Program-made: the position numbers and the translations under genes
Assembly: GCA_002842085.1 (NCBI GenBank)
Contig: PHCA01000001.1
Span: 1,511-38,237 of the forward strand
Reading direction: 5' to 3'
Length of the DNA: 36,727 nt
From: Chloroflexi bacterium HGW-Chloroflexi-1
GTDB taxonomy: Bacteria > Chloroflexota > Anaerolineae > CG2-30-64-16
The notes under the pieces: generated by a model
What the model was told of the DNA's origin: nothing
The model's input: only the letters and a program-made list of their open reading frames with translations
The model's database searches: none
Part shown: positions 11,831 through 32,221 of the stretch, piece by piece
How the letters are laid out: every line of letters begins with the position of its first letter
Numbering within the stretch: position 1 is the first letter of the stretch

Positions 11831-11869
11831 GATGCCTCGCCTGTATCTTCCTCGGTTTTTCGGGGCATG

Positions 11870-11922
11870 CTGTAGCCGGTCTGTGACCGAGCCATCGTGG
11901 CCCGGTCACAGACCGGCCACAG
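11870..11922. repeat. near-perfect hairpin repeat, copy 1 of the TGTGGCCGGTCTGTGACCGAGCCA family
   Basis: ctgtagccggtctgtgaccgagcca-tcg-tggcccggtcacagaccggccacag; preceded by gtatcttcctcggtttttcgggg. Confidence 0.85.
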
Positions 11923-11949
11923 CCCCGGAGGTTAGGCCCTTATATCCTT

Positions 11950-12012
11950 GTCTACCAACCTACCAACCTACCAACCTACCAACCTACCAACCTACCAACC
12001 TACCAATCTACC
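11950..12012. repeat. octanucleotide array CTACCAAC/CTACCAAT
   Basis: ctaccaac repeated about 8 times. Confidence 0.9.
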
Positions 12013-12041
12013 AGGCATCACGATACCAGGAGGTAACAAGA

Positions 12042-12359: not shown

Positions 12360-12368
12360 GAGGGGATA

Positions 12369-12525
12369 TTGGGAAACTGGTAAATTGGTGAATTCGTAAA
12401 TTGGTAAATTGGTAGGTGGTAAATTGGTAAATTGGGGGTTGGTTCTTGGTGAATGGTGCGACTCCCCATCACTGTACCAATCTACCAATCTACCAACCTA
12501 CCAACCTACCAAACACCAATCAACC
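12369..12525. repeat. convergent pair of octanucleotide arrays (GGTAAATT-type then CCAATCTA-type)
   Basis: aaattggtaaattggtaggtggtaaattgg ... ccaatctaccaatctaccaacctaccaacc between dsrC and dsrE. Confidence 0.85.
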
Positions 12526-17838: not shown

Positions 17839-17899
17839 GGGGCTGTGGCCGGTCTGTGACCGAGCCACCGTGGCTCGGTCACAGACCGGCCACAGCCCC
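17839..17899. repeat. perfect 29-bp hairpin, copy 2 of the TGTGGCCGGTCTGTGACCGAGCCA family
   Basis: ggggctgtggccggtctgtgaccgagcca-ccg-tggctcggtcacagaccggccacagcccc; flanked by ggatcctctcag and agagaggatac. Confidence 0.95.
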
Positions 17900-17911
17900 C
17901 AGAGAGAGGAT

Positions 17912-17951: not shown

Positions 17952-20900
17952 CTATTCGCCCGCCGGCAAGAAGCCCGGCGCTGATTCGACGGGCTTGCCG
18001 CGCCAGTGTGAGCGCTCGGCGTTGTCCGGGAAGCGGCGGAGGAGGGTGGCTCCGTCGGGCAGTTGGAGCTTGTCGCCCGGCTGGAGGTTGGCCTTGTTGG
18101 CCTTCTCGACCAGTGGTTTGGCTGGCAGGCTGAAGACGCCGATCCGGTCCCCCTGTTTGTGGTAGCGGCTCTGGATGTAGGCCAGCCCCAGGATCACGCC
18201 GTCCACGTCCACGGCCGCGCTGGTGACGTAGCCGATGGCCTGCCCCTTTTTGTTGATCACCGGATCGCCGGTCTTGGGCATCCGCACCCCGCGCTCGTTC
18301 ATGCGGAAACGGGCGATCTCCATCGTCCGCTGCTTTTCGCTGGCGATGTGCGCGGCCCGGCCGATGAAGTAAGGCTTATGCAGCTTGACGTAGCCGGGGA
18401 AGCCGGCGCCGACCGGCGAAATGTCGAAGTGGCCGGCCAGCTCGTGGCCGTAGAGCGGCAGGCCGGCCTCGGTCCGGGTGCTGTCGCGGGCGGCCAAACC
18501 GCACGGCTGCAGCCCGAACGGCTTGCCGGCTTCCAGCAGCGTCTCCCAGAACGCCACGGCCCGATCCGGGTGAATGAACAGCTCGTAGCCCACGTCCTCG
18601 CCGGTGTAGCCCGTTCGGGAGATTACGAGATCGAATCCGGCCAGATTACACTCGATCAGCCCGGTCTTGCGCACGCGGCCGATGCGATCCGCCAGCCGTG
18701 GGTCATCCACCATGCTCTGGAGGATGCGCAGGCTGGCCGGGCCCTGCAGCGCCAGGTCGACGCGCATGTCCGGCCCGCTTGACGGATCCTTCAGGTTGCG
18801 CAATGTGGTCGGGCGCAACACCTCGAGATCGGGCCGCTCGCGATCGATCAGCACCTCACTGCGGTTCACGGCGTTGATCCAGGCCCAATCCTTGTCCGCG
18901 TTGGACGCGTTGACCACCATCAGGTACTTGTCGCGCGCTCGCCGGTAGACCAGCAGGTCGTCGATCACCTTGCCGTCCGGGTCCAGGAAGTAGCTGTAGA
19001 AGCTCTCACCCGGCGCGTACCAGCGGACGTAGTTGGTGCAGACCAGGTCCAGGAATTCGGTGGCGTGGGGACCGCTGATTTCGAATACACCCATGTGGGC
19101 CACGTCGAACAGCCCGGCGTGTTTGCGGACCGCGTTGTGCTCGTCGAGCACGCCGGTGTACCAGACCGGCATCTCCCACCCGGCAAAGGGGATCACCCTG
19201 GTGGTGTGCGCCTTGTGCCATTCGTAGAGGGGGGTACGTTGGTAGATTGGTAGATTGGTAGATTGAGGGGTTGGCAGGTTGGTAGATTGGTAGATTGGTA
19301 GATTGGTAGATTGAACGGCGCGGACTTCGGCGAGGACGTGTTGGCCGACGAAATAGGGCTTGCGCAGCTCGAAGCGGGACGGCGCGACCCCGTACAGGTC
19401 GGCGCCGGAGGGACGTTCCTCGGTGACGTGAAAGCCCGTCGGGTCGTTCACCCCTAGCAGGCGTCCAGCCATGATCAACAAATCTACGTCAGGCTTGACC
19501 TCCGCCCACTCGTCGGGCGGAGGCGCAGCCGATGGCCGTGACATCGGCTGCCGGGTGACGGCCGCGAAGAGCCGTGAGACCATGTTCGGGCCGATCTGTG
19601 ACAGATCCTCAACGATCAGCGGCCCTTCGACCTTGGCGAGGAGATCGCTCCGATCGAAGATGATGTAGCCGTCTCCCAGGCCGCGCAGCCAGGCCTTGAC
19701 GCGCTCGTGGTGAACCGGCTGGGTGCGAAGGATGAAGCGGTCACGGCCGCGTTCGTCTTGCGGTAACCGCATCACTGCTACGTCGCTCATCAGCCGGCCG
19801 TCGGGATTTAGAATGAAGCCAAAACTATGCTCGCCGGGCGCTAACGCGCCCACATCGCAGGTGAGGATCTGGTTCAGGCCAGACTCGGCGCGTTCGCCGG
19901 TGACGAGGAGCAGGCCGGGGCGGAGGAGCGGCCCGGTCTGGAGACCGGCCCCAGCAGGATTGGGAAGCATATAGTAATGCGGATATCCCGTGCCCCGATT
20001 CTCGGTCTCGGCCACCCCCTTCGCCGCCAGCGCCGCGACCTCGGCCTTCACCTCCTCCAGCACGTCCAGTTCGATCTTGCCCCTGGGCAGCTCGCCCGCC
20101 AACCCCATGTAGCTGAACGGCCGGATGTTGGTCACAACCTTGTGAATCAGCCCGGCCACCTGATCCATCTCGGCTGGACCGAAGCCGCGCTGGGTGAGCC
20201 ACGGCGCGCCCAGGCGGATGCCCATCGCCAGGCCGGTCTGCGTGTCGCCGGGGATGGTGTTCTTGTTGGCGACGATGCCCGCCATGTCGAGGATGCGCAC
20301 GGCCGGTTCCCCGCGTAGGGGCGATCCCTTGCGGTCGCCCACGCTGTTGAGGTCCAACATGCAGAAATGGCTGTCGGTGCCGCCGTAGGCCAACCCCAGG
20401 CCGCGTTTCACCAGCCCGTCAGCCAACGCCGCGGCGTTTTCCTCGATCCCGAACATCATCCGCCGGAACGCCTTGCTCTGGGCGATCTTGAACATCACGG
20501 CCATGGCGGCGAACTTCTGCGGGTGGGGACCGCCCTGTTCGCCGGGGAAGACGGCCAGGTCAACCCGGCGGGCCAGTTCCTCGTCGGTGGTCACGATGAC
20601 CGCGCCGCGCGGCCCGCAGAGGGTCTTGTGCGTGGTGAAGGTGATCACGTCGGCGATGCCGACCGGGCTGGGGAACGCGCCCGCGGCCACCATGCCGGCC
20701 GGGTGGCTGATGTCGGCCAGCAGCAGCGCGCCGACCTCGTGCGCAATGGCCGCGAACGCCTGCCAGTCGGGCGCCCAGGTATACGACGTAAAGCCGGCGA
20801 TCATCATCTTGGGCCGGTGCCGCCGCGCCAGGTCGCGCAGCTCGTCGTAGTCCAGCTTGCCCGTGGTCTTGCTGACGCCGTAGGGGACGACGTGGTAGCG

Positions 20901-21434
20901 CTTGCCCGAGAAGTTGAACTCGGAGCCGTGGGTCAGGTGGCCGCCCTGGTAGAGATCCATGCCCATGACCGTGTCGCCGGCCTGCACCACGGTATCGTAG
21001 ACGGCCAGATTGGCCGCCGCGCCGGAGAGGGGCTGGACGTTGACATAAATATCGCCGGAGCTGACGCGCTCGTTGGCGAAGGTGTCCGCGCAGCGTCGTT
21101 GTGCGAGCGTCTCGACGAAATGGACGTAGTCTACGCCTTTGTAGAAGCGCCGATCGCCGTAGCGGCGGTAGTAGGCCAGCTCGTGATCGAAGTCGAGGAT
21201 GGTCTCCTCGTCCTCGCGGGTCATGCGGAGCGGGGGATAGCCCTCGGCATACACGTTGTTGAAGACCGAGCCGAGCGCCTGGCGGACGGCCTTCGGCGCG
21301 ATGGACTCGGAGGGGATCATGATCAGCTTGCGCGCCTGGCGCTCCTCCTCGAAGCCGATGATGGCGTCGGTGTCAGGGTCCACCAGGCCGATCTCGGCGC
21401 CGAGAAAAGTGTTCCAGTATTCGTGGTCGGGCAT
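17952..21434 (-). CDS. serine hydroxymethyltransferase fused to a partial GcvT-like region and a full aminomethyltransferase (GcvT)
   Basis: SHMT: LIMIPSESIAPKAV..., FTTHKTLCGPRGA; GcvT: RTPLYEWHKAHTTRVIPFAGWEMPVWY...RTGYTGEDVGYELFI...; one uninterrupted 1160-codon ORF. Confidence 0.85.
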   Translation of the reverse strand: MPDHEYWNTFLGAEIGLVDPDTDAIIGFEEERQARKLIMIPSESIAPKAVRQALGSVFNNVYAEGYPPLRMTREDEETILDFDHELAYYRRYGDRRFYKGVDYVHFVETLAQRRCADTFANERVSSGDIYVNVQPLSGAAANLAVYDTVVQAGDTVMGMDLYQGGHLTHGSEFNFSGKRYHVVPYGVSKTTGKLDYDELRDLARRHRPKMMIAGFTSYTWAPDWQAFAAIAHEVGALLLADISHPAGMVAAGAFPSPVGIADVITFTTHKTLCGPRGAVIVTTDEELARRVDLAVFPGEQGGPHPQKFAAMAVMFKIAQSKAFRRMMFGIEENAAALADGLVKRGLGLAYGGTDSHFCMLDLNSVGDRKGSPLRGEPAVRILDMAGIVANKNTIPGDTQTGLAMGIRLGAPWLTQRGFGPAEMDQVAGLIHKVVTNIRPFSYMGLAGELPRGKIELDVLEEVKAEVAALAAKGVAETENRGTGYPHYYMLPNPAGAGLQTGPLLRPGLLLVTGERAESGLNQILTCDVGALAPGEHSFGFILNPDGRLMSDVAVMRLPQDERGRDRFILRTQPVHHERVKAWLRGLGDGYIIFDRSDLLAKVEGPLIVEDLSQIGPNMVSRLFAAVTRQPMSRPSAAPPPDEWAEVKPDVDLLIMAGRLLGVNDPTGFHVTEERPSGADLYGVAPSRFELRKPYFVGQHVLAEVRAVQSTNLPIYQSTNLPTPQSTNLPIYQRTPLYEWHKAHTTRVIPFAGWEMPVWYTGVLDEHNAVRKHAGLFDVAHMGVFEISGPHATEFLDLVCTNYVRWYAPGESFYSYFLDPDGKVIDDLLVYRRARDKYLMVVNASNADKDWAWINAVNRSEVLIDRERPDLEVLRPTTLRNLKDPSSGPDMRVDLALQGPASLRILQSMVDDPRLADRIGRVRKTGLIECNLAGFDLVISRTGYTGEDVGYELFIHPDRAVAFWETLLEAGKPFGLQPCGLAARDSTRTEAGLPLYGHELAGHFDISPVGAGFPGYVKLHKPYFIGRAAHIASEKQRTMEIARFRMNERGVRMPKTGDPVINKKGQAIGYVTSAAVDVDGVILGLAYIQSRYHKQGDRIGVFSLPAKPLVEKANKANLQPGDKLQLPDGATLLRRFPDNAERSHWRGKPVESAPGFLPAGE
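19239..19314. repeat. octanucleotide array TTGGTAGA inside the SHMT-GcvT ORF, encoding QSTNLPIYQSTNLPTPQSTNLPIYQ
   Basis: ttggtagattggtagattggtagattgaggggttggcaggttggtagattggtagattggtagattggtagattg read directly. Confidence 0.95.
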
Positions 21435-21470: not shown

Positions 21471-21591
21471 GTATCCTCTCAAGCGACAGCCATAATCCGG
21501 GATGGCTGTGGCCGGTCTCCTGACCGAGCCACGGTGGCTCGGTCAGGAGACCGGCCACAGCGAGCGATTCCCCGAAAAATTGAGAAGATAC
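21471..21591. mobile_element. 121-bp MITE with 12-bp imperfect TIRs, 27-bp central hairpin and target-site duplication (hairpin family copy 3)
   Basis: gtatcctctcaa...ttgagaagatac flanked by gaagctat at 21463-21470 and 21592-21599; hairpin gctgtggccggtctcctgaccgagcca-cgg-tggctcggtcaggagaccggccacagc. Confidence 0.85.
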
Positions 21592-28028: not shown

Positions 28029-28245
28029 ATCGGTAAATTGGTAGATTGGTAAATTGGGAACGGGTAGATTGGTAAATTGGGGAGCGATAGATTGGGGAGT
28101 GGTAGATTGGTAGCTTGGGGAGCGATAGACTAGCAAGCTGGGAATTGAAACTCGGCGCCCAACGACCGACCCGTTTATCCACCAATCCACCAATCTACCA
28201 ATCCACCAATCCACCAATCTACCAATCTACCAATCTACCAATCTA
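28029..28245. repeat. convergent octanucleotide arrays between sufD and sufU
   Basis: ggtaaattggtagattgg... then ccaatctaccaatccaccaatccacc... Confidence 0.85.
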
Positions 28246-29568
28246 CAACCCCACCTTCCGCGCGATCTCCGTCTCCAACTTGCTCCGCACCCCTTCCACC
28301 GGGATCCGATCGATCACTTCCTCCAGGAAGCCCTGCACGATCATGCGTTCGGCGTTGCCGCGGTCAATGCCGCGGGCCATCAGGTAGAAGATGTATTCTT
28401 CGGGAATCTGCCCCGCGGTGGCGCCGTGCGTGCAGCGCACATCGTCCGCCTCGATCTCCAGGCCGGGGATGCTGTCGGCGCGGGCCATCTTGCTCAACAT
28501 CAGGTTGCGATTGGCCTGGTAGGCGTTGGTCTTCTGCGCCTGCGGATAGACCTTGACGTAGCCCTGGTAGACCGACCGCGCCCGATCCTTGAGCGCGCCC
28601 TTGAAGAGCAGGTCGCTGGTGGCGTGCGGCGACTTGTGCAACTGGTTCGTGTGGTGATCGAGATGCTGCCGGCCGCCGGGAACGTAAAGCCCCAGCAGCT
28701 CGCCGTGGCTGCCCGGGCCGTTCAGCTCCATGTTGATCCAGTTCTTGCTCAACCGGCTGCCCCACGAGCCGATGAAGTAGCGCAGCAGGCTGTCGCGGGT
28801 GAGCAGCATCCGCTGCGTGCTGAAGTTCCATGCCGTATCGGCCAGGTTTTGCAGATGCAGATAGTGCACCTGGCTGTTGACGCCGGGCAACAACTCGACG
28901 ACGCTGTTGGTCATCCCGCCGGCCGCGCCCACGAAGTCCTCCACCAGCGTCACCGCCGCGCCCTCTTCGGTCACGACCAGCGTGTGGTGCATCCCCGCCA
29001 GCTTGCCCGCGCTCTGGCTGATGACGGCCTGGAGCGGCTTGTCAATGGTCACGTTGCGGGGTACATAAACAAATGTGCCGCTGTTCCAGAGCGCATAGTG
29101 CAGCGCGCTGAACTTGTTCTCGTCGGTGGCGACCGCGGTGTTGAAATGCCGCTGCACCAACTCCGGATACGCGCGACAGGCGGTGTCCAGGTCGGTGAAG
29201 ATCACGCCGCGGGCGGCCAGGGCCGGGTCCAGACTGTACCGGGCCGCCGCCCCATCCACGATCGCCAGTTCACCGACGCTCTCGACCTCGGATAAGCTCT
29301 TCTCGACCTCGGCCGGCAGCGTTGCCGGATCACCTGGAGTCGAGGCTTTAGCCGGTTGGCCGCCTGATGGCTCTACTCCAGTTCCTCCGGCGAAAGGCCG
29401 GTAATCCTCCAGCCTGAAGCCGGTGAGCCGCGTTCGGCGCCACGTCTCCTCGTTGCCCGTGGGCCAGGGCATCTCCTCGAAGAATCGCCACGCCTTCTGC
29501 CGCAAATCCAGCATCCAGGTCGGCTCGACGGGGGAGGCGGCGGGGATGGGGAATGTGTGTGTTGTCAT
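28243..29568 (-). CDS. sufD: SufD Fe-S cluster assembly protein
   Basis: MTTHTFPIPAASP...GTFVYVPRNVTIDKPLQAVI...MELNGPGSHGELLGLYVPGGRQHLDHHTNQLHKSPHATSDLLFKG. Confidence 0.9.
   Translation of the reverse strand: MTTHTFPIPAASPVEPTWMLDLRQKAWRFFEEMPWPTGNEETWRRTRLTGFRLEDYRPFAGGTGVEPSGGQPAKASTPGDPATLPAEVEKSLSEVESVGELAIVDGAAARYSLDPALAARGVIFTDLDTACRAYPELVQRHFNTAVATDENKFSALHYALWNSGTFVYVPRNVTIDKPLQAVISQSAGKLAGMHHTLVVTEEGAAVTLVEDFVGAAGGMTNSVVELLPGVNSQVHYLHLQNLADTAWNFSTQRMLLTRDSLLRYFIGSWGSRLSKNWINMELNGPGSHGELLGLYVPGGRQHLDHHTNQLHKSPHATSDLLFKGALKDRARSVYQGYVKVYPQAQKTNAYQANRNLMLSKMARADSIPGLEIEADDVRCTHGATAGQIPEEYIFYLMARGIDRGNAERMIVQGFLEEVIDRIPVEGVRSKLETEIARKVGL
29334..29381. repeat. palindromic element inside the sufD coding sequence
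   Basis: ctggagtcgaggctttagccgg...gatggctctactccag; shares exact tcgaggctttagccgg with 33241-33256. Confidence 0.6.
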
Positions 29569-29591: not shown

Positions 29592-29719
29592 CGGGTAGAT
29601 TGGTACATTGGTAAACTGGTAAATCGGTAAATTGGTAAACTGGTAAATTGGTAAACTGGGCTTGTACTGATGCGAAGCCAGAACCCAATCTACCAACCTA
29701 CCAATCTACCAATCTACCA
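29592..29719. repeat. convergent octanucleotide arrays between sufB and sufD
   Basis: ggtaaactggtaaatcggtaaattgg... then ccaatctaccaacctaccaatctaccaatctacc. Confidence 0.85.
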
Positions 29720-32221
29720 TCACCCCACCGTCCCTTCCATCTGCAACTGAATCAGTCGATTCAACTCCACCGCGTACTCCATCGGCAGTTCCTTGACCAT
29801 CGGCTCGATGAAACCGGAGACGATCATGGCGCTGGCTGCGTCCTCCGCCAGGCCGCGGCTCTGGAGATAGAAGAGCTGCTCTTCGCCGATCTTGCTGACC
29901 GACGCCTCGTGGCCGACGGTGATATCGTCCTCGTCGATCTCGATGTACGGGTAGGTGTCGGAGCGGCTGCGCTCGTCCAACAGCAGCGCGTCGCAGACCA
30001 CGTTCGACCTGGCGCCGTGGCTGCCCTTGCTGACTTTCAGCAGGCCGCGATAGCTGGCGCGGCCGCCGCCCTTGCTGATGGACTTCGAGATGAGCTGGCT
30101 GCTCGTGTTCGGCGCGGCGTGCACCAGCTTGCCGCCGGTGTCCAGGTGTTGACCGGGGCCGGCAAACGCCATCGAGAGGATCTGGCCGTGCGCACCCTCG
30201 CCCAGCATGTAGACCGACGGATACTTCATGGTGGTCTTCGACCCCATGTTGGCATCAACCCATTCCATTGTCCCATTTTCATACACCAGCGATCTTTGTG
30301 TCACCAGGTTGTAGACGTTGGTAGACCAGTTCTGAATCGTTGTGTAGCGGCAACGGGCGTTCTTGCGGACGATGATCTCGATGACGCCGCTATGCAGTGA
30401 ATCTGTCGAATATATTGGTGCTGTGCAACCTTCTACGTAGTGCACACTCGCGCCTTCGTCCACGATGATCAGCGTGCGCTCGAACTGCCCCATGCTCTGC
30501 GCGTTGATGCGGAAATAGGCCTGGAGCGGGATGTCGAGATGTACCCCTTTCGGCACGTAGACGAACGACCCGCCCGACCAGCACGCGGTGTTCAGCGCCG
30601 CGAAGCGCGCAGGCCGCTGTCGCTGTCCACGAAGATGACGCCTTGCTTTTCCCACTCTTGCTTAAGGGAATGGTATACAGCTTCGGAGTTGTGAACGATC
30701 AACCCTTCAGCGACGAAATTGTGCGGGCCATCCACTTCGATGTCATAGACCGGCTCGATGCCCGCCGGAATGATGCTCTTGATGCGGGCAAAGCCCACGA
30801 ACTCGTTCGTGTGGTGTCGGAAGGTGGTGCCCTTGCTACTCGAATAGTCGTGGCGAAAACGTCGCTTACCCAGGCGTTCTGTTCGCTGTGGGGAGCGGCA
30901 GCCCAGGCGTTCGAATTCTCCGCTCAACTGCATTCGGTAGCCATCGACATAGCGTTCCTCGTCGTAAGGATGCTTGGACGCGAAGTGGTGGATAGCTGAT
31001 GTGGGGATGCCACACGACAGAGCCAACGCTTGGACTTGCTGCAGAAGCTCGTTGTTGCCGCTGGTGATGACTACGTCATGGCTTGTTGGGTGATCGCGCA
31101 CGTAGCCATCGGCATCCACATACCCGCCCAGGAACGCCAGCCGTTCGCTTTCTGGCAAGGTATGTACCCATTGCGGAATCCGTTTCGTCAGCGCACGACC
31201 GGCAAGACCGTTGACTTCCGGATAGCGCGCCAGGATCGTCGAGTACACCGTCATGCGATTGGGATCGCCATTGGTCGCCGTGATATCAAATACTGACTGG
31301 GTGACGTTCTTGAATTCTGTCCGCAGTGGCGCGTCCGTCTCAGGAATGGCGAACTCCACACGCGCCTTATCGGCGCCTTTGTGGTAATGAATGAAGCCAT
31401 CGCCCACGTAGAGGCCCAACCACCACATCAGATCGGTGGAGGTAGTGGTTGGAAGCGAGACACGATTGTAGCTGCCGGTGATGTCCGGATCGTATTTGAC
31501 GCCCGTCTGATTGCTTCCGACGACTTTGGTTTTGACGTTGGGCATGGTAAGGGTGTACGGCTGTCCTGCATCTGGAAGCTTCTTCGCAACGGCCACCAGG
31601 TCGCCGGGCTTCAGATCACGCAAATACTTCCACTCGCGTGTAAAGCGCCCGCGCTGCTTACCTTCCTCGCGGCGATAGGAAAGGGTCAAAAAGGGGTGGT
31701 TCGATGTGGCGCGAATCGTCTTCGTATGAACTCGCAACTCGAACACCTCGCGCTCACCCTTATCCATCTTGGCCTTGACAGGGGCTGAGATTAGCCGGTT
31801 TTGCGCTTCGTCAAAGGCAAATACGATGTCACCAGGCTCGATCTCGCGAATCGGCGTCAGGCCGCGGGCCGTGGCAACGCGTGTAGTGCCGCTCAAACAC
31901 TCATACTGCGCGCCCGCGCCGGCGAGAAACTTGCGCTCCGCCTCGGGGATGCCGAGCCTGTCGAACGTCTCCTTGATGTCGGCCGGCACGTCATCCCAGC
32001 TCCCAGGTCGGGATCGGCCTGGAGAAGAAGATGTCCAGCGCGGCGTGGCGGTATTTCCGCATCCACTCCGGTTCGCGCTTCATGGCGCTGATCTGGTCCA
32101 CGATGTCGTGGTCCAGTCCCTTGCGCGCCTTGAAAACGTATTTTTCCGGCTGGCTGAACCCGTATTTGTACTCGTCCTTGAGGTCGGCAAGGACCGCGCG
32201 GTCGGTGCTCGTTGCAGACAT
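29720..32221 (-). pseudogene. sufB: SufB, split by an intein and by two exon deletions/frameshifts
   Basis: N-exon MSATSTDRAVLADLKDEYKYGF...SRPIPTW; middle [55 protein letters not shown]-exon [34 protein letters not shown]...LEMEG-type end. Confidence 0.85.
30688..31899 (-). other. 404-aa intein with LAGLIDADG homing endonuclease inserted in SufB
   Basis: Cys1 [22 protein letters not shown] block [11 protein letters not shown] and [33 protein letters not shown]. Confidence 0.95.

Follow-up and report, generated by a model that had tools for sequence, protein, structure and literature searches.

The stretch of DNA analysed here (36,727 nucleotides, hereafter the window) comes from the genome of the uncultured Chloroflexi bacterium HGW-Chloroflexi-1 (G000; 4.45 Mb in 419 contigs), a member of the class Anaerolineae. 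On its reverse strand it carries a glyA-gcvT fusion gene (17952..21434), in which the linker before GcvT is encoded by an array of octanucleotide repeats. As stated in a preliminary description of the window, a single open reading frame (ORF) of 1160 codons joins SHMT and GcvT, and both parts score above the respective profile cut-offs (SHMT, PRK00011.1 / NF000586.1 of NCBIfam, 398.7 bits versus a curated cut-off of 335; GcvT, NF001567.0 of NCBIfam, 307.2 bits versus a curated cut-off of 300, and TIGR00528.1, 287.7 bits versus 235.85). The SHMT domain (20145..21173, minus strand; Pfam SHMT, residues 88-430) has crystal structures of SHMT as its top Foldseek matches, with a template modelling (TM) score of 0.95 (by target). 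GcvT as a whole covers residues 732-1100 and consists of the folate-binding domain (18402..19229, minus strand; Pfam GCV_T, residues 736-1011) and a C-terminal barrel, a weak match that reaches to about residue 1100. The preliminary description named these two enzymes correctly but overlooked a degenerate GcvT-like domain between them (19599..19937, minus strand; residues about 500-612). This middle domain matches the N-terminal domain of GcvT (hhalign probability 99.6, E 1.9e-23), of which it is a divergent homologue, and in the AlphaFold2 model it repeats the strand/helix order of GcvT. No GcvT other than as a fusion was found in this genome, where the window gene is accompanied by one paralogue cut by contig ends, as had been supposed.

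The array of (AATCTACC)n units lies at 19239..19313 on the minus strand, codes for residues 708-732 and was delimited to exactly these positions by Tandem Repeats Finder (9.4 copies, score 108). Its 75 nt are in frame and give 25 codons with the peptide QSTNLPIYQSTNLPTPQSTNLPIYQ. The three-domain order and the joint motif KPYFxGQ..RTPLY are both present in the G000 gene, and PEFxWxEPxxAPLK, which is conserved in the last linker of relatives, is missing, with the array in its place. At a shift of 8 the array DNA matches itself at 83% of positions (p = 0.0005, the floor set by 2000 shuffles); in two relatives, the linker gave p = 0.69 and 0.83, i.e. no repeat. The fusion protein is otherwise modelled with confidence (AlphaFold2 with 44 sequences, mean predicted local distance difference test (pLDDT) of 84.8, predicted TM score of 0.85), and the array linker forms a low-confidence stretch within it, with pLDDT <50 at residues 722-729 inside the array peptide, low pLDDT being only a proxy for disorder. 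Furthermore, no ATG, GTG or TTG lies between the array and GcvT, in agreement with the preliminary description; the first in-frame GTG follows about 14 codons on, already inside the first GcvT strand.

The arithmetic of the repeat unit explains how such a sequence can be part of a gene. Since the unit length of 8 nt is not divisible by three, the strand reading AATCTACC yields one and the same stop-free peptide in every frame, the cyclic octapeptide NLPIYQST; the opposite strand has TAG in all three. The array had been described as open in the frame of the fusion gene, which is true of that frame and equally of the other two. Having the same open peptide in every phase, an array can enter a gene in any frame, given the right orientation and a fitting total length. 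Changes of 8 or 16 nt in array length would shift the GcvT frame and a change of 24 nt would not, as the preliminary description had also reasoned. Its further suggestion of a length-variable linker is supported by in-frame differences across genera, namely 25 codons in G000 versus about 21 in G006.

Age of the fusion and origin of its linker

The preliminary description proposed that an intergenic array had bridged separate glyA and gcvT genes and thereby created the fusion. The array indeed sits at a domain junction and belongs to the family that is also intergenic in the window, and another locus of G000 has the look of such an event. On contig 174 (L094, 1286-4348), an acetyl-CoA acetyltransferase (thiolase) gene has no stop of its own and continues across an octamer array into the frame of an acyl-CoA synthetase, 1020 codons in all. 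In G001, a genome of the same genus, the thiolase ends normally, and the acyl-CoA synthetase of G001, G006 and G007 is preceded instead by a 3-oxoacyl-ACP synthase-like gene (named by eye). Given this different upstream gene, rearrangement and misassembly are both possible, and the thiolase-synthetase frame is a candidate for a fusion made by an array, or else a misassembly.

For the glyA-gcvT gene, however, a bridging origin is refuted by array-free fusions in many families and phyla, including sister genes within the same family, and we give it practically no chance; relatives with the fusion and without the repeat are the very outcome that the preliminary description had set against its own proposal. 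When the full-length fusion protein was searched against 60 genomes of the class, about 30 of them showed the same fusion as a single ORF whose linker is ordinary and conserved. Within the family, most of the sampled genera have it as a single open frame of about 1050-1270 codons, as do many further families of the class; in the alignment, the linker of these relatives is conserved, has the motif (P)EFxWxEPxxAPLKRTPLYEWH and contains no repeat. When species genomes were scanned with the middle domain, 80 loci were obtained, mainly in Anaerolineae and other Chloroflexota, and further ones in metagenome-assembled genomes labelled in their records as Acetothermia, Aerophobetes, Spirochaetota, Poribacteria, Planctomycetota and Thermoplasmata archaea. 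Of these labels, Acetothermia, Aerophobetes, Poribacteria, Planctomycetota and Thermoplasmata are represented by the fusion in one ORF; full-length sequences from several of these genomes could be aligned, and their joint is free of arrays as well. Because the array-free fusion extends across the class and into other phyla, the fusion must be far older than the array; judged from these sequences, it is ancient and class-wide, and the array did not make it. With the search terms tried, we found no published account of an SHMT-GcvT fusion or of such repeats in Chloroflexota.

Among the genes examined, an array at the SHMT-GcvT joint occurs only in G000 and in G006 (peptide QSTALPIYQSTGPQSTNPPT), and G001 has the ordinary linker. 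The whole-gene tree, calculated with the linker removed, places G000 as sister to G005, which has no array, together with G006. Forcing G000 and G006 as sisters was rejected (approximately unbiased (AU) test, p = 0.00045), and two state changes are needed. Inheritance of the array linker from a common ancestor of the G000 and G006 genes was rejected for the complete gene and also for either half (p = 0.00095, 0.035), and the flanks of the array reveal no special closeness between the two. Moreover, the G000 gene is a mosaic. The N-terminal half clusters with G005/G006, a grouping with G001 being rejected (p = 4e-8); the C-terminal half clusters with G001 (support 86/85), and here a grouping with G005 is rejected (p = 0.015). 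Residues 61-420, i.e. the SHMT part, share 90-97% DNA identity with G005, which belongs to another genus, and the rest is much less similar. This pattern may result from recombination between genera or from a chimeric contig. The nearest relative switches near residue 420-480, away from the array, and we do not claim that the array was the recombination junction.

Such a mosaic in a metagenome assembly raises the question of an artefact, in which two contigs would have been joined at the array into a repeat-driven chimera. Repeats are prone to misjoins and the gene halves have different nearest relatives, which would fit. However, a misjoin would have had to bring together the two matching halves of one gene without loss of frame; in the independent assembly of G006 (contig VGOD01000009.1), from another genus, an array linker occupies the same residue position; and there is no identity step next to the array, the break of the mosaic lying elsewhere. 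We regard an artefact as very improbable.

Besides the array, the region contains palindromic sequences. A second dispersed element, near-perfectly palindromic and of about 55-60 bp, occurs in the window at 17840-17902, 11868-11925 and 21503-21562 (GGCTGTGGCCGGTCT..GACCGAGCCAC/GTGGCTCGGTC..AGACCGGCCACAGCC), and its half-site has 267+267 copies in the genome versus 2+1 for the reversed control. Within the fusion gene, a short inverted repeat at 19930-19951 (GGCCCGGTCT/AGACCGGCCC), at a low-confidence joint (residues 495-502), is similar to the core of this element and may be a coding remnant of it. Two hairpins at 19492-19551 lie in the part of the gene that is most diverged from relatives and has low pLDDT (residues 601-660). 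The one at 19525-19551 was considered as a second dispersed element and ruled out, being present in a single copy in the genome.

Arrays in other core proteins and across genomes

Repeats of this kind also interrupt unrelated proteins, which were identified with Pfam/NCBIfam; relatives align on both sides of the arrays. In PolA (DNA polymerase I) of G000, the octamer is in frame between the 5'-3' and 3'-5' exonuclease domains. PolA arrays of this family are found in G000, G001 and G007, with no array in five other genera, and the array of G001 exceeds that of G000, another species of the same genus, by 16 codons or 48 nt, a multiple of 24 nt. HisC of G000 has the octamer in frame directly before the FLASPNNPDG motif. 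The same loop holds the octamer partly in G006, (CGAATCAG)n in G009 and a GGGAGTGT-like octamer in G007, and it is short in G002 and G004. Whole inverted octamer pairs lie in frame in MutL and in an HdrA2-like protein of G000. Besides this octamer hairpin of G000, the MutL site holds (TCCGAAA)n in G001, again the octamer in G006 and another octamer in G008, and the loop is short in others; the HdrA hairpin is present in G000, G001 and G006. Every one of these repeat stretches matches itself best at a shift of 7 or 8 (p = 0.0005, again the shuffle floor). In the arm of the MutL pair that should bear stops, GGGAAAGT/GGGAGAAT stands at every third octamer and the stop is gone, the pattern that would be expected from selection on coding. 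By eye, the MutL loop of G027 and G062, two genomes from distant families, is heptamer-like.

The octamer is by no means restricted to genes. Units of 7-8 nt dominate the tandem repeats of the window, with period 7 in 6 and period 8 in 15 of 42 entries, and the 16-mer AATCTACCAATCTACC has 324 exact copies in G000 (151+173) versus 0+0 for the reversed pattern. Array organisation was surveyed in 61 G000 stretches, the window included, that were picked around known arrays, so that the resulting counts are not genome rates. They contain 113 arrays, 48 of which make 24 inverted pairs within 200 nt, all with the order (GGTAGATT)n, loop, (AATCTACC)n. In the window, an intergenic array of the same family lies upstream of a small gene (11952..12013, plus strand), and intergenic inverted pairs, recorded without strand, occupy 12368..12525 ((GGTAAATT)n then (AATCTACC)n), 28032..28246 (a long hairpin, fold z-score -10.5) and 29594..29719 (a hairpin, fold z-score -8.5). 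Hence, the short units and the many dispersed, largely intergenic arrays that characterise short tandemly repeated repetitive (STRR) sequences are found in G000.

Across the class, the exact 16-mer is present in 23 of 299 genomes and abundant in only a few of them; the reversed control is absent from every genome but one. Counts reach 324, 171, 50 and 46 in the host family, with few or none in near relatives, and 285 in G133 (family f21) and 142 in G178 (family f15). The identical octamer was seen to be abundant in scattered genomes of distant families (G133, G178, G027, G062 and G092), whose neighbours are without it. The same octamer in distant families with empty sisters could reflect transfer, or else a favoured unit that expanded independently. 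In the distant octamer-bearing families, this octamer was looked for at the MutL, PolA and fusion sites and not found.

The array could also have been selected, either as a hinge of variable length that tunes the coupling of SHMT and GcvT, or as a phase-variation switch that silences GcvT by 8-nt steps. The linker lengths that differ between genera, together with the PolA arrays of two species, would suit such a role. However, the identical peptide occurs in the unrelated PolA, MutL, HisC and HdrA, and different repeat families alternate at one site, which suggests tolerance over a specific role. To our knowledge, phase variation does not usually involve MutL, PolA or HisC. We consider selection for either function unlikely, and the arrays are probably mostly tolerated rather than beneficial.

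The explanation that we hold to be highly probable is an ancient fusion whose pre-existing linker was later replaced by a dispersed octamer array, as one case of frame-neutral repeats being tolerated in disordered linkers. The fusion of SHMT, GcvT-like domain and GcvT would have come first, and the array would have been swapped in for the interdomain linker much later, in this lineage. It could land in any frame, provided that the orientation is right and that its overall length leaves the downstream frame intact, and would then grow or shrink in 24-nt steps of three units, presumably via slippage or unequal recombination. It would persist where the protein tolerates a flexible, disordered stretch rich in Ser, Thr, Asn, Gln and Pro, as in interdomain linkers and surface loops, and be lost elsewhere through selection. 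The same process may have put arrays of 7 and 8 nt, single or as inverted pairs, into the other core proteins of the family. Several points weigh against this explanation. All genomes are metagenome assemblies, and exact array lengths may be collapsed; the different nearest relatives of the two gene halves make two independent array gains uncertain; and the linker peptide may have a function. Nevertheless, although the number of independent gains is uncertain, the order, fusion first and array later, is not in doubt. A more far-reaching view, which we put forward tentatively and hold slightly below even chances, is that arrays of 7 and 8 nt make up a class of dispersed genetic elements that invade proteins and are frame-neutral on one strand. 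They would recolonise the same loops with different families per genus, sometimes as hairpins translated through both arms, and the patchy occurrence of the octamer in distant families would point to spread between lineages.

Two observations from G000 are added. A large membrane-protein-like ORF adjoining an assembly gap on contig 406 (L080, 2904-5789) contains in one frame an octamer array encoding (ISESANQQ)n, the heptamer-type peptides NTQYPIP and SEIRNPK, and a AATCTACC array. In the window, a SufB-like gene (30592-31989) is apparently split by an intein-like segment (by eye, from the ORF translation).

Relation to known repeat systems

Bacterial satellite-type repeats have been described mainly as intergenic, and here they are found in frame in enzymes of replication, repair, amino-acid and one-carbon metabolism, at sites recolonised by unrelated repeat families. 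The arithmetic rule shows how non-coding repeats can turn into protein linkers with the frame intact, and the many sites offer natural test cases for the tolerance of proteins to new disordered linkers. Caution is also advised, because an array of this kind can look like a gene fusion or be the sign of an assembly join. A comparison is offered by the palindromic elements of Rickettsia, which are dispersed, form hairpins and lie in frame in unrelated genes, as the arrays do here; unlike the tandem arrays of 7-8 nt, they are palindromes of roughly fixed sequence.

Among the nearest known systems are the tandem repeats in ORFs of the Borg elements of Methanoperedens archaea (PMC9879509). Like the present arrays, Borg repeats are both intergenic and in frame in genes, their coded part is disordered, and they change fast between relatives (PMC9879509); for the octamer array, pLDDT <50 at residues 722-729 serves as the proxy for disorder. 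However, Borg units are divisible by three (PMC9879509), in contrast to our frame-neutral units of 7-8 nt, of which the 8-nt family recurs genome-wide and in core enzymes of a bacterium. The heptamer repeats of Cyanobacteria, Beggiatoaceae and Xanthomonas share with our arrays the 7-nt units, the hundreds of dispersed arrays and the patchy distribution among relatives, but they are mainly intergenic and under-represented in coding regions (PMC4679880, TAACTGA; PMC4692102, G-rich), and TAACTGA holds a stop in its forward orientation (PMC4679880), whereas arrays of the G000 type are in frame in several conserved proteins. The Beggiatoaceae paper mentioned in passing that modular proteins might tolerate an insertion between their parts, an idea that our arrays fit and extend to several core proteins. 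Finally, the P6b stem of the Nostoc tRNA-Leu intron is built from seven-nucleotide repeats (PMC4476775). There, too, short units in paired arms extend a stem and repeat classes replace each other at one site, though in the intron of an RNA gene and not in proteins (PMC4476775).
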